Below are positions 47,287 to 58,170 of a stretch of DNA of 64,000 bases, piece after piece. This DNA comes from a bacterium SCSIO 12741 (GTDB lineage Bacteria; Bacteroidota; Bacteroidia; Flavobacteriales_G; Salibacteraceae), in contig CP073749.1 of assembly GCA_024398055.1 (NCBI GenBank), forward strand, positions 1,736,594-1,800,593, in the 5' to 3' direction. The translations under genes were made by a program, and so were the position numbers. Numbering within the stretch: the stretch's first letter is position 1; each line of letters opens with the position of its first letter. The notes beneath the pieces were generated by a model. The model was not told the origin of the DNA, did not search any database, and worked only from the letters and a program-made list of their open reading frames with translations.

Positions 47287-50200
47287 TTATTCCTTAATCA
47301 AACGAAGGGTTTTTAACTCACCGTCAGACAGGACCTTAAGGGTGTAAGTTCCATTTGCCAGATGCTGAACATTCCACTCCAATCGATCAACTCCACCGGT
47401 TTTGTGCTCCGCAACAACTTTGCCAGAAACGTCTAACAGGGTCAAACTAATCTCTGATTTGGGTGCGCTAAACACTAAGGTGTAAAGGCCGTCTCCCGGG
47501 TTCGGGTAAATGATCAGGTCACCGGCATCAGATTGATCTTCAATCGACAGGAAAGATGTTTTACAAGCTGAGGTGTCTACGCAATTTCCAGCAGTTACTT
47601 CCACAGCATAGCTTCCTCCTTGAGTTGGAGTATACTGTTTGCTTGTTGCGCCGGAAATGGGCGCCCATTGTTGATCGCAGTTCAACCATTGATATTGGGC
47701 AGAGGCTTCCGCTACTTCCATCGTTCCGGATTGTTCGGTTAGGCTTACATCGATTTTCTTCACCTGAACGGTTACCTGGTCCGAACCTACACATTGATTT
47801 ACATCGCGACCTGTTACCGTATAGGTTTGGGTTTCTGTAGGGAAGAAGGGAACGCCATCCTGTACGCCCGAATCCCAGGTGTAGGAAAGGGCTCCAGATC
47901 CGGTGAAAATCACGGACTCGCCTTCGCAAATTTGAGTTTTGTTTACCTGGGCGCTAACCGTCGGTTTAGAAGTACATTCACGGAAAGCATAGGTATATCG
48001 GTAAGTTTCGGTAGTGTCATTGTGGTCGCCAATGGCATAAACCTTAAAAAAGATCCGAGTACCTTCAGGATATCCAGGAATGGCCTGATCACTTTTCCAG
48101 GTGCTATCTTGCTGCAAAGTGAAGCTTATGGTTTTATCCAGTTGAGTGCTGTCTTTCGACCATTTTAGGTAAACCTTACTGAGGTTGCCGGAATAAGAAA
48201 TCATACTTTCCACATCCATAGGCAGGCCTTCAACAGGTTGAAGATCGGTTGGCTTTTCGGTAGGAATAACGGTTAAAATTTTGGGGTAATCCACGCGGTT
48301 TACCAGGGAGGCTTCCCACAATCCTCTTCCCCAGGTTGCGGCTCTTAGGGTGTTGCTTCCGTATTGAATTTCCAGGTCTCTTACCGTTACGCTGGGCAAT
48401 CCTTCGCCAAGCAATTGCCACACGGTGTCTTTCATGGCCTTGTAGTAAACACCAATTTCGCCACCAGCATAGATGTAGTTTTCCGGTGAATGATCGATGA
48501 TCAATGACGAAACAGGAATAGGCGACAAGTTGTAGCTGATGTTTTGCCAGGTTTGCCCCAGGTCGGTAGACATATATACACGGCGGTTGTTATCGTCATG
48601 TCGATCATAGGCGATAAACAGGGTGCTGTCGCGATCGGGGTGGAAGGTGATGGCGGAAATGGAGTAAAAGGTGGGAACGTTGTTGGAAACGTCGGTCATG
48701 GTTTTTCCGCCGTCCATAGAAATCGCTAATTCATCATTTCTAACAAAGGCGAGAATTTGCGTGTTGTTGCTGGCTATGGCGGCCAGTTTTGGAGTTCCCA
48801 CGGCAGATTTGCTAATGATTTGCCAATTGGTTCCAAATTCAGTGGTTTTGTAAACATCGTATCCGATGGAATATACCGTAAATGGATCGTTGGGGTCAAA
48901 AAGCAGTGGAGCGACCCAATCCATGGTTCCCGGGTGGTACCCATTCTCGTAGGACCAGCCTCCATCTTTGGCCCAGTAGCGACGACCATTTTGTACACTT
49001 CCCATTACCCAGTCGGCATTAAGCGGATGAACGAAACATTCCATTCCATCGCCGCCGTACCATTCGACCCATCCGGTGTCGGTACGAACGCTGGTTCCGT
49101 TGTCCTGTGATCCGCAAACGGTATAATCGGCCTGCGATTGGCTTACTCCGGCGCGGTAGTTTTCACGAATTCCCGTACCGTCACTGATCCGTGTCCAGGT
49201 TTTTCCATTGTCGGCACTTTTGGCCAAATAGCCATCCGATCCCACGTAAAAAACGCCATTGATGCAATCCGCAACGCGGGCATCGGCATGGATGTAATTG
49301 GTTTGTCGATTACTGCCCGGACTTCCTGTATTCCAATAGGTAGCTTGAGTAAGCGTTCGTCCACCATCGCTGCTTCTAAACAGGTCTTCGAAACCATAAA
49401 TTATCTTTGAAGTATCTACGTCTGATACGGCGAAACCGCCTCCACCTTCATAGTAAGAAGGTTTACCAATAAACGTATAGCTAACTCCGGCATCTTCCGA
49501 TTTCCACATTCCGCTATGGGAGGCAAACCAAACGCAATCGGGGCACTGGGGGCGGGTAACAAGGGCTACGTCCCGTTGTCCTTTGTTCAGGAGGGTAGTA
49601 GAGCGATTAAAGTTTTGCCCGCCATCCAAAGAGCGGTAAACCCGGTTGTAGCTACTTAAATTGAAGCCTAAACCTCCATAAGCGTAGACAATTTGATCAT
49701 CCGTAGGGTGAAAAGCCAATCGGTTAACAAAGCGTGTGGTGATCTGCGTACGTGTTTGCATTCTATCCGTTGAGCGGTACAAGCCGCCGGAAGTTGCTAC
49801 AAACATGAGGTTAGCGCTATGTGGGCTAAAAACGATGGTGCTCACTCGATCTGATTCCTGAAATCCACCAAAGCTGTTGGATGGATTAAACCAGGTCGTG
49901 TTCCAGGTCATACCACCGTCGGCGGAAAGGTAAACTCCATGAGAATATCCGTTATCCGCATTTCTAACATTGATCCAAACCGAGTCTGGGTTGGTGGGTG
50001 ATACACAAATAACGTCCACCCCACTTGCAGGCAGTGTATCCGTCGTGTTCTGCCAGTTTGTTCCTCCGTCTGTGGTGCGCCAAAAGCCACCACTTCTTGA
50101 TCCAATGTAAATTCTCTGGTCATTTTTAGGGTCTACATAAAAGCACTCCACGCGTCCAATACCAGCGGCGTAATGCAAGGAAATGTTATTGGCATCATAA

Positions 50201-51601: not shown

Positions 51602-54567
51602 TTGGAGCGAACCCATTTCTTAAACCACCTCAATCTCTTTTTGACCTTTTTGGGGCTTGTCCTGTCCGTGTTGACCGGGAAGGCTCAGGAATATCAATAC
51701 GAGCATTTTTCTTCGGAAGACGGTCTTCCCAGCCTGGAGTGCCACTACATCATTCAGGATCAAAAAGGCTATATCTGGATCGCCACAGACCAAGGCATAG
51801 CACGTTACGACGGGCAAGACTTCAAGGTTTTTTCATCCAAAGACGGACTTAAAAACAACTTTACTTTTCGATTATTTGAAGATGGTCAAGGGCGAATATG
51901 GTTTATGACCTACGACCAAATGATCTACTACATTGAGAATGACTCTTTACATGCCTGGCCCCATAATGATAAAGTAGAGCAGGTGTTTGCAGGTGGAATT
52001 GGATTAATTAATGCTCGGTTTCACGATGGCATATTAGACCTTTATTTGAGAAGCTCAGAAGACCCTTGGACTATTTCTCAACTGGATTTGCAAACCGGTG
52101 AAATAAGTCAGTTTAGCCTTGATCACGATAACATCACTATGTTTCTGAAGGACTCCTTCACCTATGACGTGGGAGTCATGCAGCTTGAGGATATAGCTCG
52201 GGACGATACAACTATTCGAGAGACTGTTTTTCTGGAGCATCCTGAGCCTTTAAGGTTTGATCTTCCTGAGTTTGGGCAAGTGGCTTATGATCAAATGCGA
52301 GTTAGTGGGATCATCAATAAAAAGGGACAGACCATTCTGCACATCCTGGATAATCTGATTGTTATTGAGGATGGAGAAGTCATCTTTAGAAAGCCATTAA
52401 AAGGTTTTTTCGTAGGAACTTTATTTCTGGAAAATGACTCTACCTTTTGGGAAGGGCAGGAAAGCACGAACCCCATTCGGGTTCAGTTTTCTTTGACCGC
52501 AGGGACCGTAAAGGTGGAGGAGATTAATTTACCGATTCCGGGCGCGGTTCATTTTTTGAAAGATCGAGATGGTGGAGTTTGGATTAATTCGGTAAAAAAA
52601 GGGGTGTTTTATCTCCCACAACCGGCGGTTAGAAAACTCGATTTAGGCCCATTTTCAAATGATGTTGTAAGTTCTATCGAAGTATTTGGAGATCGGGTTT
52701 TTGTAAGCACTCATTCGGGCCTACTTCTTCAGCTGGATAAGGAGAGCTTTTCCTTAATTGAACAAGAAAAGATATCAGAACGAATTTCAGATATAATACA
52801 ATTCAAGGGCGTCCTTCATATTGCTGGAAATCCAACCATATCTTCTTGGAAGCCAAGGGCAGATTTTCACTATCAAGTAGGCCTTACTGGCTTTTCTAAC
52901 GTTGGAGAAAATCTCTACACCTACAACCAAGCCGGGTATTTCGAATATTCTATTGACGATCGCGAATGGATCGATGTGCGAAATACATTGGGCGAAATGG
53001 GAAGAGTTACTGCTGTTGCGGAATACATGGACACCTTATTCATAGGTGGAATCTATGGCATTCGTACCGTTAAAGACAACCAGATTTTTCCCACCTCTAC
53101 CATTGGCCCATCCTTTACCATTAGAGATTTAAAAACCACCTCACAGGGCTTAGTTATGGCCACTGCTGGCGGAGGATTAGTCGTATACGACCAAGGGCAA
53201 TATGAAATATTCAATACGGAAAATAGCGCGGTAATCTCGGATTTTATCAATCACATTTTGTTGGATGGGGAATCCATTTGGTTGTCAACGGGCGCCGGAA
53301 TCCAACAAGTTCAGTTGAGTGCAGCGAAGGATAGTCTGATTAGCTTGAGACAATATTCTCGATACAATGGCCTACCAAGTGGTGAGGTGCTGCGCGCCAA
53401 GCGAGTAAACAACCAAATGTTAGTGGCTACTAAGAAAGGGTTATGTTCTATTTCGCTCAATAGTAAACAGCGTAGAAGTACGCCACCTATTTACTTGAAG
53501 TCGGTAAAAATTAATGGTGAGCCGGCATTGCTGGACAAAGCACTGAATCTTACCTACAAACAAAACAACCTGGAGATTGCCTACAGCAGCCCCTCTTTTG
53601 CTTCCAAGGGCAAAACCGAATACCAATACCGACTGTTGGGAGCTGATGATCGATTCTTGACTTCCTCTCTGCCCAAAGCAACCTTGCTGGGTTTGCCTGC
53701 TGGTGAGTACACTTTTGAGGTTTACGCTATCAATCGATATGGCTTGAGAAGTGAACAACCGGCTACTTTTCAGTTTCGGATTTATCCCGTTTTCTGGGAA
53801 ACCTGGTGGTTTCGGATTGGCGCTTCGGTGGTACTCATTCTACTGGTGGCGGGTTTTGTCAAAATGCGTTTGAATCAAGAGAAGAAAAACAATGAGATGC
53901 TGCTGTCGCTCAATGAATTGAAGCAGAAAGCACTCAATGCGCAAATGAATCCTCATTTCATATTCAATTCCTTGGGCAGTATTCAAAACCTCATTTTGGA
54001 TAATCGAAACGATGAAGCTGAATTCTACCTCACTCGATTTTCCAGGTTGATGCGAAAAATGTTGAATGTTTCAGAGCGGTTGTACAATCCTCTCAAGGAC
54101 GAATTAAGCATTCTGGAAGAATACGTCACGTTGGAAAACCTCCGGTTTAATCAGGCCATTGAGGTCAAAATTGAAATTGAACCGGGGTGGATAGCGGAAA
54201 GTGCCAGGTGCCTACTATGTTGTTTCAAACCTTGGTGGAAAACGCAGTTATTCACGGCATTTTGCCTGCTCAACGCAAGGGACTTATTTGGGTGCGTGTA
54301 CGTCGAATTGGTGAAGACATGTTTGAGGTCACCATCGAGGACAACGGTATCGGAATCAAGAAATCAACCGAACGAAAACGAGAGAAAAAGAAAGCCTATC
54401 AATCAAAAGGTACCCGCATTATTGAGGCTCGCCTTCATGCCCTGTCAGAACTGGGGAGAAAGAATTACCAAATCAATTTTAGCGACCTCAGCGATACGGG
54501 TGCAGAAGGCACGCGAGTCACCTTGATTATTCCCGTTCTCGGTGAAGAAGGGTTGAATGACGATTAG
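51602..54567 (+). CDS. Reg_prop/Y_Y_Y LytS-type sensor kinase, interrupted by a -1 frameshift
   Basis: About 988 residues in full. It starts at TTG 51602, 7 bases after the previous stop, with a signal segment (FLTFLGLVLSVLTGKAQ). A Reg_prop-type propeller (DQKGYIWIATDQGIARYDG, EDGQGRIWFMTYDQM), a Y_Y_Y domain (~NLEIAYSSPSFASKG, ending PVFWETWWFR), a transmembrane helix, and a His_kinase domain with H785 in QMNPHFIFNSLGSIQNL follow. After IEIEPG the main frame turns to noise; the frame beginning at 54187 carries the missing ATPase part (VPTMLFQTLVENAVIHGI, VTIEDNGIGI, KGTRIIEARLHAL). One more G in the GGGG run 54184-54187 joins them. No LytTR response regulator lies next to it, so it is an orphan kinase in this window. 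Confidence 0.85.
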
Positions 54568-54568
54568 T

Positions 54569-55921
54569 TTAAGATTGGGTGACGCGGTAAAAGCTGCCCT
54601 TTTCCAGTTTGTAAGTAAACCCGCCCAGCTCGATAGTTTCTCCGTCATTTAGTTCAATCAGATTTTTTAGGTCTTCTTCCATGGTATGAATCGAACCACC
54701 GGTTTCCCGGGCAATTTTCAAGTAATCGGGATGAACACTACCCCAGCCTCCACAGATCACTACGCGCACCGGACTTTTGATTTGATTCAACAAACGAATG
54801 TCTTTAACAGGTGCCCAGCTATCCGCAATGAGAACCACTTCCTGGTAATACTCTTGTCCCTTCATACCTTCGATCAAGGCTTCGATGTTGTTTTCAGGAC
54901 CGTCTCCACCGCCTCCGTTTCGCATGGTTTCCTGTGCCAAAGCTTTTACATCTGGATAGCTCGAAAAATTGCCTTGATAAATCCCACCGGTGCTTCCAAT
55001 TACTTTTTCGCGATCAGGCGTCCAATTCCCATCATTGAAGAAGACAAAGGATTTTACCCGGTCGTCGTTGCTATTGAGTTGCAACCAGGTTAAAATCTGA
55101 GCTACGTAAGGGTACATGCTTCCAGTCAGATCCGCTGTAATTAACATGTCCTTCCACTCCGGGTGACGGCCCATAATCTTAAAAATGGTAGAATCAATTT
55201 GATAATCCCGACGAACGATGGGAACGGGTAGTTCGGCAAAAGTTGAGGTGTGGTAAACGGTTGTTGAGCTCCCAATAACTACCCGAATTCCTCCGGAAAC
55301 AGTATCTACAATAGCATCTTTGGGAAGGGTTTTTAAAAGGTCTTCCATGAATTCCGTGTACATCGGTGCCACTACCGCTGATGTATCATCGGATGGGACA
55401 TCTTCTATCATGGATAGTTCGGATGTAGAAGGACTCGGTGTTGGAATAATCGCTTCTGGAACTTTTCCGCTGAGCAAGGATTCTAATTTTTTCCATTCCT
55501 CCTTTCGGGTTTCCGGGGTGGGAGTTGGTCTGTAGGTAATCACCAAGCCGTGAAACAGATCCCTGGCCTCTTGTTCCGAAGGACAGTTCATTTGCCGAAT
55601 CACCCGGGTAAATACCTGAGATAGATCCAATTCAGGCTTAGCTGTTTCGAGTGCTTTCAGCCGTCTTCCATTCAAAGATTTTAGGTTGATGCCTTTGGGG
55701 TAATCGGTACATACGATTTCAATTTTGAGAATGCTGGATGCGTCCAGAGCTCTGAGTTCTTCGGTAATCGAAAAAGAGGATTTCCCAAATTCCATGGGAA
55801 GGTAGAGTTGCTCACCAGACTCAAGTACTGGTCGATAGGTCGGTTGTTCAAATTCGGGAATCGAGGCCAACAGGGAAACCTGGGCCAGAAGAATGAAAGC
55901 TGCTAACAAAACTTTTTTCAT
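54569..55921 (-). CDS. Secreted von Willebrand factor A-like protein
   Basis: 450 residues from ATG 55921 (signal peptide MKKVLLAAFILLAQVSLLAS). An N-terminal beta domain (~25-150) includes NLKSLNGRRLKALETAKPEL, followed by a Pro/Ser/Thr linker and a vWA-like domain (~245-430). The MIDAS is D-x-T-G-S in ITADLTGSMYPYVAQIL, with the later NGGGGDGPENNIEALIEGM segment, a GGxDGPE motif seen in other vWA families, and LIADSWAPVKDIRLL near the third metal position. It should bind a divalent cation and a protein partner at the envelope. It is divergently transcribed from the ECF sigma gene across a 130-base region that holds a perfect inverted repeat. No catalytic domain is seen. Confidence 0.75.
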   Translation of the reverse strand: MKKVLLAAFILLAQVSLLASIPEFEQPTYRPVLESGEQLYLPMEFGKSSFSITEELRALDASSILKIEIVCTDYPKGINLKSLNGRRLKALETAKPELDLSQVFTRVIRQMNCPSEQEARDLFHGLVITYRPTPTPETRKEEWKKLESLLSGKVPEAIIPTPSPSTSELSMIEDVPSDDTSAVVAPMYTEFMEDLLKTLPKDAIVDTVSGGIRVVIGSSTTVYHTSTFAELPVPIVRRDYQIDSTIFKIMGRHPEWKDMLITADLTGSMYPYVAQILTWLQLNSNDDRVKSFVFFNDGNWTPDREKVIGSTGGIYQGNFSSYPDVKALAQETMRNGGGGDGPENNIEALIEGMKGQEYYQEVVLIADSWAPVKDIRLLNQIKSPVRVVICGGWGSVHPDYLKIARETGGSIHTMEEDLKNLIELNDGETIELGGFTYKLEKGSFYRVTQS

Positions 55922-55977
55922 GGTAGTCATTTTTATGTGGTTATGGTGTATTTTGCAGCTTTATACCCATCCAGGCC

Positions 55978-56024
55978 AAAAGGTAAACCGGCAATCAAAA
56001 AAAATTTTTCTCAGTTTACCTTTT
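55978..56024. promoter_or_regulatory. Perfect 11-bp inverted repeat in the vWA / ECF sigma intergenic region
   Basis: AAAAGGTAAAC (55978-55988) has its exact complement at 56014-56024, with a 25-base AT-rich spacer. It lies 28 bases before the likely GTG start of the sigma factor and 57 bases from the vWA start. A second pair, CCAAAAGG (55976-55983) and CCTTTTGG (56029-56036), surrounds it. A candidate operator or paired promoter region. Confidence 0.55.
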
Positions 56025-56051
56025 CGATCCTTTTGGTATGAACCTAAAACC

Positions 56052-56594
56052 GTGAGCAAGGAAGATAAAATACGGGCCAAGCTAATTCAGGGAGATTCCC
56101 GTGTGTTTGCCTACTTGTATCGCGAATACTACACAATGGTTCAATACCTGGTAACTCAAAATAGCGGAGACGATGCGGCGGCTCAGGATCTCTTTCAGGA
56201 GGTAATGGTCGTGCTTTACGAAAAGGCAAGGGACGAAAAATTACACCTGACGGCAACCATTAAGACCTTTATTTATTCCATTGCTCGCAACCTTTGGTTG
56301 AAGGAATTAAGAAAGCGAAAGTCGGAGTTGAATTTTAAGGACTATGAACGCTATCTGGAGGAAGAGCAAACCGACGATGAAGAAGAAGAGGTGGAAGGCC
56401 TACAACAAAAGTTAGATGCCTGCCTCGAAAAGTTGGGCGATCCTTGTAAGACTTTACTCATTCGCTTCTATTACTTTAAGAAGAGCGTCAAAGAATTAGC
56501 AAAAGAACTGAAATACGCCAATCCCGAAACGGTAAAGGCTCAGAAATACAAATGCATGAAACGTCTCCGTAGCCTGGCTGCCGGGACTTTGTAA
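56052..56594 (+). CDS. ECF-family RNA polymerase sigma factor
   Basis: 180 residues from GTG 56052; the frame is open to 55893 but that would overlap the divergent gene and add an unrelated N-terminus. Region 2: FAYLYREYYTMVQYLV, DLFQEVMVVLYEK and IYSIARNLWLKELRKRK. Region 4: LEKLGDPCKTLLIRFYYFKKSVKELAKEL with KAQKYKCMKRLRSL as the DNA-contacting helix. A very acidic linker (EEEQTDDEEEEVEG) joins them. ECF sigma factors are released by stimulus-dependent loss of an anti-sigma partner; the next gene, 3 bases downstream, encodes a likely anti-sigma factor. Promoter specificity cannot be read from sequence. Confidence 0.93.
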   Translation: MSKEDKIRAKLIQGDSRVFAYLYREYYTMVQYLVTQNSGDDAAAQDLFQEVMVVLYEKARDEKLHLTATIKTFIYSIARNLWLKELRKRKSELNFKDYERYLEEEQTDDEEEEVEGLQQKLDACLEKLGDPCKTLLIRFYYFKKSVKELAKELKYANPETVKAQKYKCMKRLRSLAAGTL

Positions 56595-56597
56595 ACG

Positions 56598-57215
56598 ATG
56601 GAACTCAACGATCAGGACATAGCGCAAATAGAGGCTTACCTACTAGGTGAGTGCAGCTCCGAAGAGCGGGCCGCCTTGGAGCAGCGTGTGCAATCTGATC
56701 CCGAGTTTGCCGCTGAATTCCAAGCCTATCAGCAACTGCATAAGGGAATTAAAGAGCATGCTCGTCAAGCATTTAAAGCAAACATTGCCGCTGTAGGAGC
56801 CAAAGTGATCGCCAAAGGAGATATGAACTCCTACAAGCCGAAGCTGAAGCCCGGTGGTGGTGGCGGAATTGGTAACGGTATTTTCACCATTATGGCGATA
56901 GGCCTTGTGCTTGCGGTAGGTGGTTATTGGGCCGGTTCTCAATACCTGTTCCCTGAAGGATTACCTCCTTTGATCGAACAAGAAGTAATTCAGGATACTG
57001 TGGAAGTGATTGAGCCCGCTCCTTTCCAACAGCCAGAGCCTCAAGTGAAGTACGATACTCAGGAGGTAACCATCGTTCATCGACGTACGCTCATGATTAC
57101 TCCCGATGGTGACACCGTGGAAGTTACCGGGTCGGCTCAGGATGCCATTGATGAGATTAATGCTTCCGAAGGAGTTACTGTAGATTCGGTATACACCATT
57201 GAACGCCTTCCTTGA
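56598..57215 (+). CDS. Probable membrane anti-sigma factor
   Basis: 205 residues. The N-terminal cytoplasmic part (~1-85) begins with IEAYLLGECSSEERAALEQR, the 'YLLGELSxEExxxLE' pattern typical of Bacteroidota anti-sigma N-terminal helices; it has no HxxxCxxC zinc motif. One transmembrane helix follows a Gly-rich stretch (~95-120, IMAIGLVLAVGGYWAG), and the periplasmic C-terminus (~125-205) is Pro/Glu-rich and then beta-like. Such layouts relay an envelope signal to the sigma factor. It starts 3 bases after the ECF sigma stop, so they are translated together. The assignment rests on the N-terminal pattern, topology and context. Confidence 0.8.
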   Translation: MELNDQDIAQIEAYLLGECSSEERAALEQRVQSDPEFAAEFQAYQQLHKGIKEHARQAFKANIAAVGAKVIAKGDMNSYKPKLKPGGGGGIGNGIFTIMAIGLVLAVGGYWAGSQYLFPEGLPPLIEQEVIQDTVEVIEPAPFQQPEPQVKYDTQEVTIVHRRTLMITPDGDTVEVTGSAQDAIDEINASEGVTVDSVYTIERLP

Positions 57216-57303
57216 TCGATCGTCGATAATTCCCAGGCTTAACATACGAATAGGGCTCCTTTAGCGTGAATTGGATAATTTTAATCCCTCAAATTTGGAA
57301 AGT

Positions 57304-58146
57304 ATGAAGCGTTCAGCCCTTATCGTATCCTTAACCGTTTTGTCGGCATCCTTGTTTTTCAGCTCTTGCGAAAAAGCCAAACAAAATAGATCCACGGACA
57401 CCTCTGAAGATTACTCGCTTTCGCAGGCCATGTCCGATGATCTCTACAAGGTTATCGACCAAGCTTCATCAGAGGAAGCAGGGGTCCGCTCTTCGGGATC
57501 TTTATCCTGTGCCACCATTACTTTATCTCCCGCATTACCGGATAGTACCTTTCCAAAAACACTGACTATCGACTTCGGGTCATCGAATTGCACGGGCAAT
57601 GACGGCATTAGAAGACGGGGTATTGTTCAAGTGGAGTATACCGGACGCTATCGGGATGAAGGAACGCAAATTACCGCGACCACGACCAATTACTATGTCA
57701 ATGACCATCAGGTTATAGCCAATAAGAAAGTAAAAAATGCAGGCCGAAATTCTTCAGGTAACCTGCATTTCGCAATTGAGGTTGATGGAAAAGTGATCAC
57801 TTCCGATGGGAATGAAATTGTATGGCATTCAGCTCGCTCGAGAGAATGGATTGCAGGTGAAAACACCACCTGGTGGTCCCACGGATGGGCTGGCGTAACG
57901 GATGATGTTTATTCCATAAACGGGCAGGCCACAGGAACCAACAGAAACGGAAAAAATTACTCTGCCATCATTACCAAAGCACTGATTTATCAGGTAGGAT
58001 GCCGCTGGATTAAAGAAGGTACACTTGAAATTCAGCCAGATGATTTGACCTTGCGAAAAGTGGACTTTGGAAGCCGCTCAGAAGGGTGTAATAACCAGGC
58101 CACGGTGGAAATAGGTAATCGCAGCTACGATATCGAAATGAGATAA
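57304..58146 (+). CDS. Lipoprotein of unknown function
   Basis: 280 residues from ATG 57304 (MKRSALIVSLTVLSASLFFSSC), a clear lipoprotein signal with the lipidated Cys in FSSC. After a Ser/Thr/Asp-rich linker, the mature part looks like an all-beta domain with four cysteines beyond the lipid one in pairs (SCATITL / SNCTG and VGCRW / GCNNQ), suggesting disulfides. Motifs such as LTIDFGSSNCTGNDGIRRRG recall conserved Bacteroidota secreted proteins of unknown function, with charged VDGKVITSDGNEIVW repeats. It follows the anti-sigma gene by 88 bases on the same strand, so it may belong to the same regulon or operon. A hairpin terminator closes the group. Confidence 0.8.
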   Translation: MKRSALIVSLTVLSASLFFSSCEKAKQNRSTDTSEDYSLSQAMSDDLYKVIDQASSEEAGVRSSGSLSCATITLSPALPDSTFPKTLTIDFGSSNCTGNDGIRRRGIVQVEYTGRYRDEGTQITATTTNYYVNDHQVIANKKVKNAGRNSSGNLHFAIEVDGKVITSDGNEIVWHSARSREWIAGENTTWWSHGWAGVTDDVYSINGQATGTNRNGKNYSAIITKALIYQVGCRWIKEGTLEIQPDDLTLRKVDFGSRSEGCNNQATVEIGNRSYDIEMR

Positions 58147-58170
58147 AAAAAACGCACCCCGAAGGATGCG
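58144..58170 (-). terminator. Rho-independent terminator (bidirectional)
   Basis: Minus strand: CGCATCC, UUCG loop, GGGTGCG (one G-U), then eight T. It ends the T9SS gene to the right; the plus strand has CTCTTTTCTG after the stem and could also end the lipoprotein gene. Confidence 0.87.

Follow-up and report, generated by a model that had tools for sequence, protein, structure and literature searches.

Putative mirror-image ECF promoters between a sigma factor operon and a divergent vWA gene in bacterium SCSIO 12741

The locus and its genes

Here we describe a divergent gene arrangement in the bacterium SCSIO 12741 (Bacteroidota; Bacteroidia; assembly GCA_024398055.1), in which a gene for a secreted von Willebrand factor A (vWA)-domain protein faces an operon for an extracytoplasmic function (ECF) sigma factor and its anti-sigma factor across an inverted repeat. 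The stretch analyzed, referred to as the window, comprises 64,000 nucleotides (G000:C1:1736594-1800593, where G000 is the window's own genome) and lies on a single 5.10-Mb contig, CP073749.1. The original prediction, made from this DNA alone, had described four open reading frames (ORFs) encoding a vWA protein, an ECF sigma factor, a zinc-less anti-sigma factor, and a lipoprotein, and all four are present.

A metal ion-dependent adhesion site (MIDAS) consists of a DxSxS-like motif and a distal aspartate. The vWA protein (54569..55930, minus strand; 453 aa) had been predicted to be secreted with an intact MIDAS, which agrees with its hydrophobic N-terminal stretch (with no lipobox by eye) and with the MIDAS-type residues D267-x-T269-x-S271 and D370, invariant in 5/5 aligned sequences including that of the window. 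Its assignment draws on the ORF, this aligned motif, a fold match, and an orthologue in G071, a genome of another family. The Pfam score is 14.5 bits for PF25106, under the cut-off of 27, and the first PDB matches of the predicted structure (predicted local distance difference test, pLDDT, 62.5) are vWA domains, the best at E 2.4e-3 and none at E <= 0.001. The product is probably a metal-dependent binding protein, located in the periplasm or on the surface.

The ECF sigma factor (56052..56594, plus strand; 180 aa) was taken to start at the GTG at 56052 rather than at the long-ORF start at 55893. Besides the ORF, its assignment is based on PF04542 (sigma-70 region 2; 40.0 bits, cut-off 24) and TIGR02937 (79.1 bits, cut-off 42.9), while region 4 (PF08281) scores 15.0 bits against a cut-off of 25.7. 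The following gene (56598..57215, plus strand; 205 aa) encodes P0003, a zinc-less single-helix membrane anti-sigma factor, identified from its ORF, from weak profile matches that are all under cut-off, and from homologues beside the ECF gene in G011 and G071. As had been predicted, it has no HxxxCxxC motif and a single hydrophobic stretch, near residue 90.

The inverted repeat and its outward composites

Between the divergent starts, the predicted 11-bp inverted repeat is exact, with the left arm AAAAGGTAAAC at 55978..55988 and the right arm GTTTACCTTTT at 56014..56024, neither assigned to a strand. When the 121-nt intergenic gap was simulated by 2000 first-order Markov sequences, 16 contained a perfect inverted repeat of at least 11 bp; taken alone, the repeat is only mildly unlikely, and its significance comes from conservation.

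The reading that fits the repeat best is a pair of promoters facing outward, each of the form GTTTACCTTTT-N10-GGTATRAA. The promoter-like composite of the vWA gene (55960..55988, minus strand) includes the left arm and comprises GTTTACC at 55988-55982, a spacer, and TATAAA at 55965-55960, and that of the ECF-anti-sigma operon (56014..56042, plus strand) includes the right arm and comprises GTTTACC at 56014-56020, a spacer, and TATGAA at 56037-56042. In G071, the intergenic repeat reads AAAGGTAAAC/GTTTACCTTT, and outward from each of the four arms in the two genomes GGTATNAA stands at a near-fixed distance, in one case 1 nt shorter. Because the arms are 42 nt apart in G071 and 25 nt apart in the window, the spacing between arms appears free, whereas the spacing within each promoter appears constrained. 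Two other ways of reading the arms were dropped: as facing -35 elements (AAAAGGTAAAC read inward), in view of the conserved outward GTTTACC...TATNAA, and as primary-sigma -7 boxes (TAnnTTTG), a match that is incomplete and accounts for less than GTTTACC plus TATNAA.

Conservation of the composite across related ECF loci

Related ECF loci were sampled as the best 71 of 82 homologous places, the weakest 11 being left out, so that the sample consists of best hits and is not random. The composite was defined as G[GT]TTAC-N-TAT[TAG]AA with spacers of 14-20 allowed, within 150 nt upstream of the ECF gene or, for the mirror copy, within 400 nt. A full composite was found upstream of the ECF gene at 49/71 loci and the -35-like part at 63/71; a mirror copy was present at 28/71 and both composites at 24/71. 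The 52 forward composites have spacers of 16 nt (39) or 17 nt (13) and nothing else, and the spacers of the 28 mirror composites are likewise solely 16 or 17 nt. In some of the upstream regions the element takes a related form, GGTTACCTTT...GTATTAA, and several of these regions have it in inverted orientation as well.

Among 552 other ORFs of the same loci, used as a control, the composite lies upstream of four, two of which are vWA genes (that of the window and the second one in G071); a mirror copy was found in nine and both in one, which is the window vWA gene itself. Fisher's test compared 49/71 with 2/550, omitting those two vWA genes as presumed targets; with all ORFs kept, the control value is 4/552. 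Downstream of the related ECF genes, a same-strand ORF was present at 69/71 loci, with a hydrophobic stretch in 68 (homology not checked one by one), and HxxxCxxC is missing from all 69 of these ORFs, which places them outside the zinc-binding anti-sigma (ZAS) class. At one locus in G248 (L343), an ECF homologue without the full composite stands divergent to a gene for a 196-aa protein, which contains DQSGSM and looks vWA-like by eye.

At the 28 loci with a mirror copy, the gene behind it is a 60-89-aa ORF with a lipobox-like motif in 26, distributed over nine families of the class, and a vWA gene in two (the window and G071). These small lipoproteins have low-complexity tails rich in A/T/D/E, and some loci scored as having no mirror copy still carry one (e.g. 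L192, L195, and L180). Five small lipoproteins were compared with NF050142 (PG1828) and scored 34.4, 32.8, 23.4, 19.6, and 16.4 bits, short of the cut-off of 50; three of the five lie behind a full mirror copy, the best of those at 32.8 bits. PG1828 is a lipoprotein of Porphyromonas gingivalis, reported to be a strong immunostimulator (PMC7352132). The small lipoproteins of the related ECF loci thus resemble this type weakly, whereas in the window the vWA gene occupies their place.

Conservation of the vWA-sigma unit and vWA genes in trans

Within the order (42 genomes, the window's own included), the vWA family occurs in 20 genomes, a close ECF homologue (E <= 1e-12) in five, and the anti-sigma factor (E <= 0.01) in three. 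When 28 vWA loci were searched for the window's ECF sigma factor, anti-sigma factor, and lipoprotein (P0002-P0004), no match was obtained at E <= 0.01. Of 395 genomes of the class, at least 111 encode the vWA protein (E <= 1e-20) and at least 80 encode the ECF (E <= 1e-28), both lower bounds from the best four or eight candidates scored per genome.

The unit recurs in G071, which has a divergent vWA gene (38.5% identity over nearly the full length, E 1e-103), the ECF (50%), the anti-sigma factor (35%), and both composites, and has no 280-aa lipoprotein. The search for co-occurrence that had been proposed therefore recovers the vWA, ECF, and anti-sigma genes together, rarely and with the lipoprotein not included. 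The window and G071 are sisters in both the vWA tree (support by the Shimodaira-Hasegawa-like approximate likelihood ratio test, SH-aLRT, 92) and the ECF tree (SH-aLRT 91), so the vWA-ECF pair was probably inherited together. Both were quick trees with SH-aLRT support only, and the outgroup of the ECF tree is not cleanly separate; in it, the vWA-bearing ECFs form a sister lineage to the main lipoprotein-bearing clade and are not nested inside it. A phylum-wide search for further units returned three other genomes at E <= 1e-36, all known already, and no new unit; two genomes of G071's order were examined, one of which has the ECF at E <= 1e-35.

A vWA gene adjoins any ECF gene in 3/73 vWA rows, the third, in G003 (L039), having a different kind of ECF. 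This divergent pair was considered as a third instance and set aside as suggestive at most, as its ECF does not match P0002 and lies near a second ECF.

A composite stands near the start of four of 74 vWA rows: the window, G071, G149 (GGTTACCTTTTACCCTCTTCCGGTATTAA), and G324. In G149 and G324, it is 18-19 nt before the start of a vWA gene located on another contig than the ECF, and both genomes carry this ECF lineage. The vWA loci contain 840 further ORFs, none of which carries a composite. Fisher's test was run as 2/70 versus 0/840 (p 0.006); the first fraction should be 2/72, as 72 of the 74 vWA rows are left once the two module rows are taken out, and the rows are best hits rather than a random sample, with one duplicate locus and fragments still counted. 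In G071, a composite (L182:11241-11268, plus strand) also lies upstream of a second, canonical vWA gene with a type IX secretion system (T9SS) sorting tail, located after the first.

A candidate regulon in the window's genome

The pattern GTTTACCTTTTN10GGTATRAA has four zero-mismatch sites in G000, two in the window repeat and two upstream of the genes P0005 and P0006. The next best are one site with two mismatches (coding, window 49907-49935) and seven with three. Sites within three mismatches number 12, versus 12 for the reversed control pattern, and the pattern was written from the sites themselves. A count of GTTTACCTTTT by itself depends less on those sites. At least six exact copies exist in G000, four of them known from outside the repeat: two lie directly upstream of lipoprotein genes and are followed by GGTAT at exactly N14, and the other two are within coding sequence and have no GGTAT. 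The P0005 site is 17 nt before the ORF and about 107 nt before a methionine that better fits a lipoprotein, and the P0006 site is 22 nt upstream of the gene.

P0005 and P0006 are related to each other (E 2e-8), and neither matched a family at its cut-off in Pfam or NCBIfam. Their domain is also found in proteins of a cluster in G003 (E 4e-24 and 2e-12) that has a vWA homologue and two ECFs, and in proteins with an anti-sigma-like N-terminus encoded directly after an ECF gene in G324 and G004 (L114); at another G004 locus (L113), a protein with this domain also directly follows an ECF, its anti-sigma-like N-terminus being judged by eye. Its fusion to anti-sigma-like proteins links P0005 and P0006 to sigma signaling independently of the promoter. 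A fold of the shared domain predicted from one sequence (pLDDT 42) was not used, nor were P0005/P0006-family genes near vWA genes (twice in L039, in L041 and L274, and two at locus edges), for which there is no background rate.

In the G003 cluster (L039:9771-18571), the vWA homologue and an ECF are encoded divergently. The cluster also encodes a second ECF and two proteins with the shared domain, a membrane protein (P0006 domain) and an OmpA protein (P0005 domain). G000 itself has a second vWA homologue of 727 aa (G000:C1:3408043-3409146; L041:8733-10916, minus strand), whose C-terminal part matches leucine-rich-repeat models under their cut-offs and which has a P0005 relative four genes away.

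Proposed mechanism and alternative explanations

We consider it likely that the ECF/anti-sigma pair controls its own operon and the divergent vWA gene through a mirror-image promoter, the repeat being an outward -35 pair. The genes, the composites with their strict spacing, their conservation, and the shared sites are features of the sequence itself; the course of events would be as follows. An envelope signal would cause the membrane anti-sigma factor to release the sigma factor, which would then fire the mirror promoters of its own operon and of the vWA gene, as well as the two unlinked promoters of the related lipoproteins P0005 and P0006. The vWA protein would probably bind its ligand in the periplasm or on the surface, possibly with these lipoproteins, and might either act back on the anti-sigma factor or serve to reinforce the envelope. 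The repeat would most likely act as back-to-back switches by which one stress-type sigma factor induces both its own operon and the gene of a secreted binding protein.

Several observations weigh against this model. The vWA gene adjoins this ECF in just 2/73 vWA rows, and 22/71 ECF loci have no full composite, among them those of G149, whose ECF has the -35-like part alone, and G324, whose ECF has neither part. The composite-bearing vWA gene of G324 also has another ECF about 6 kb away and is a weaker case than that of G149 for a vWA target in trans. In G011, the same-family ECF/anti-sigma pair closest to the window's (52-53%) has neither composite and no adjoining vWA gene, which sets a limit to how old or how stable the sigma-vWA link can be. 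The ECF leader would be very short, TATGAA and GTG being 9 nt apart. When the pattern was loosened to TTTACC-N13-15-GGTAT, G000 had 28 matching sites and the control pattern 20, so that chance accounts for most of the loose matches; the G000 scans cover the GTTTACC form rather than GGTTACC forms with a 16-nt spacer. Finally, conservation ties the putative promoter to the sigma gene and does not tell which sigma factor reads it.

This last point bears on the possibility that the composites are promoters of the housekeeping or another alternative sigma factor and that the ECF operon is transcribed in the ordinary way. TATNAA does resemble a general -10 element, and the vWA gene of G324 has a composite that the ECF of this lineage in the same genome lacks; however, the flavobacterial primary consensus, TAnnTTTG (PMC9723704), differs, and the element is present at 49/71 such ECFs versus 4/552 and 0/840 other ORFs, which leaves this explanation improbable. 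A perfect inverted repeat within a divergent intergenic region would also suit an element common to both genes, either an RNA hairpin or the operator of a distinct transcription factor. We regard this as highly improbable, since the arm spacing varies while the spacing within composites is nearly constant, and since single, non-palindromic copies stand on the coding strand before P0005, P0006, the vWA genes of G149 and G324, and the second vWA gene of G071.

The original prediction favored a self-contained four-gene envelope unit whose signal could be presented by the vWA protein or by the adjacent lipoprotein. The gene order in the window fits it, the lipoprotein gene lying on the same strand 88 nt after the anti-sigma gene with no terminator-like site found between them. 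What endures of this proposal is the conserved divergent vWA/ECF/anti-sigma arrangement (G000 and G071) with the repeat as shared regulatory DNA. The four-gene composition does not: the lipoprotein gene has no composite upstream, is missing from the G071 unit, lies beside this sigma factor in one of 12 loci viewed (the window alone), and belongs to a family common without the sigma factor, and it was rejected as a member. "Self-contained" is probably wrong as well, as two distant lipoprotein genes (P0005 and P0006) share the promoter string, and the putative promoters make the vWA protein first of all an output; the prediction as a whole is thus given a slighter chance still. Least probable is that the vWA gene is a chance neighbor with no functional link to the sigma factor: most vWA rows do have other neighbors, but the unit and its promoters are kept in G071, and a composite recurs at the distant vWA genes of G149 and G324.

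Relation to known systems and significance

Bacteroidota have many ECF sigma factors, and promoters or targets are known for few of them (PMC12596196). The systems described include SigP, EcfO, which is tied to oxidative stress, and Das1, which with its anti-sigma factor Dma1 is tied to vesicle formation (PMC7712824, PMC12596196). The window resembles these systems in having an ECF sigma factor with the anti-sigma gene downstream, as is usual there, and it differs in the predicted mirror-image ECF promoter driving a divergent secreted vWA gene. The SM6 promoters of Flavobacterium psychrophilum are reported to serve T9SS and band-7 genes among other targets (PMC9723704). A number of composites read CGTATTAA, and comparison with SM6 relies on its reported CGT box rather than on the logo; SM6 may be the same element, in which case part of the motif is already known. 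In the open-licence literature, as far as its text was available, no description was found of a mirror promoter that couples a Bacteroidota ECF to a vWA gene or to the gene of a small lipoprotein.

Sequence comparison here assigns to an entire ECF lineage a -35/-10 pair whose spacing is fixed, together with a testable target list of four promoters in G000, and the coupled envelope protein, a small lipoprotein or a vWA protein, varies behind a constant promoter. As a tentative extension, which we think rather doubtful, this might reflect a class-wide, undescribed envelope-homeostasis circuit, in which the mirror promoter couples one Bacteroidia ECF lineage to an envelope protein that exerts feedback, in most cases a tiny lipoprotein of low complexity, and in which, in the window's lineage, a MIDAS vWA protein and two co-regulated lipoproteins feed back on the anti-sigma factor.

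Neighboring genes

The 280-aa lipoprotein (57304..58146, plus strand) probably lies outside the unit, as judged from its family distribution and the lack of a composite. It has Cys 22 in the lipobox and further cysteines at 69, 96, 233, and 262. Its family occurs in 31/42 genomes of the order, its own included, and at one locus (L120) a member lies three genes from a different ECF. A Cas5f match to it, at 15.2 bits, was dismissed, and searches of the locus for defense and plasmid functions gave no usable match. On the other side of the vWA gene, a sensor histidine kinase (Reg_prop, Y_Y_Y, His_kinase) occupies window positions 51602-54567 on the plus strand, with the ATPase part, by eye, in another frame (ORF 54187-54567), indicating that either the gene or the assembly contains a frameshift.

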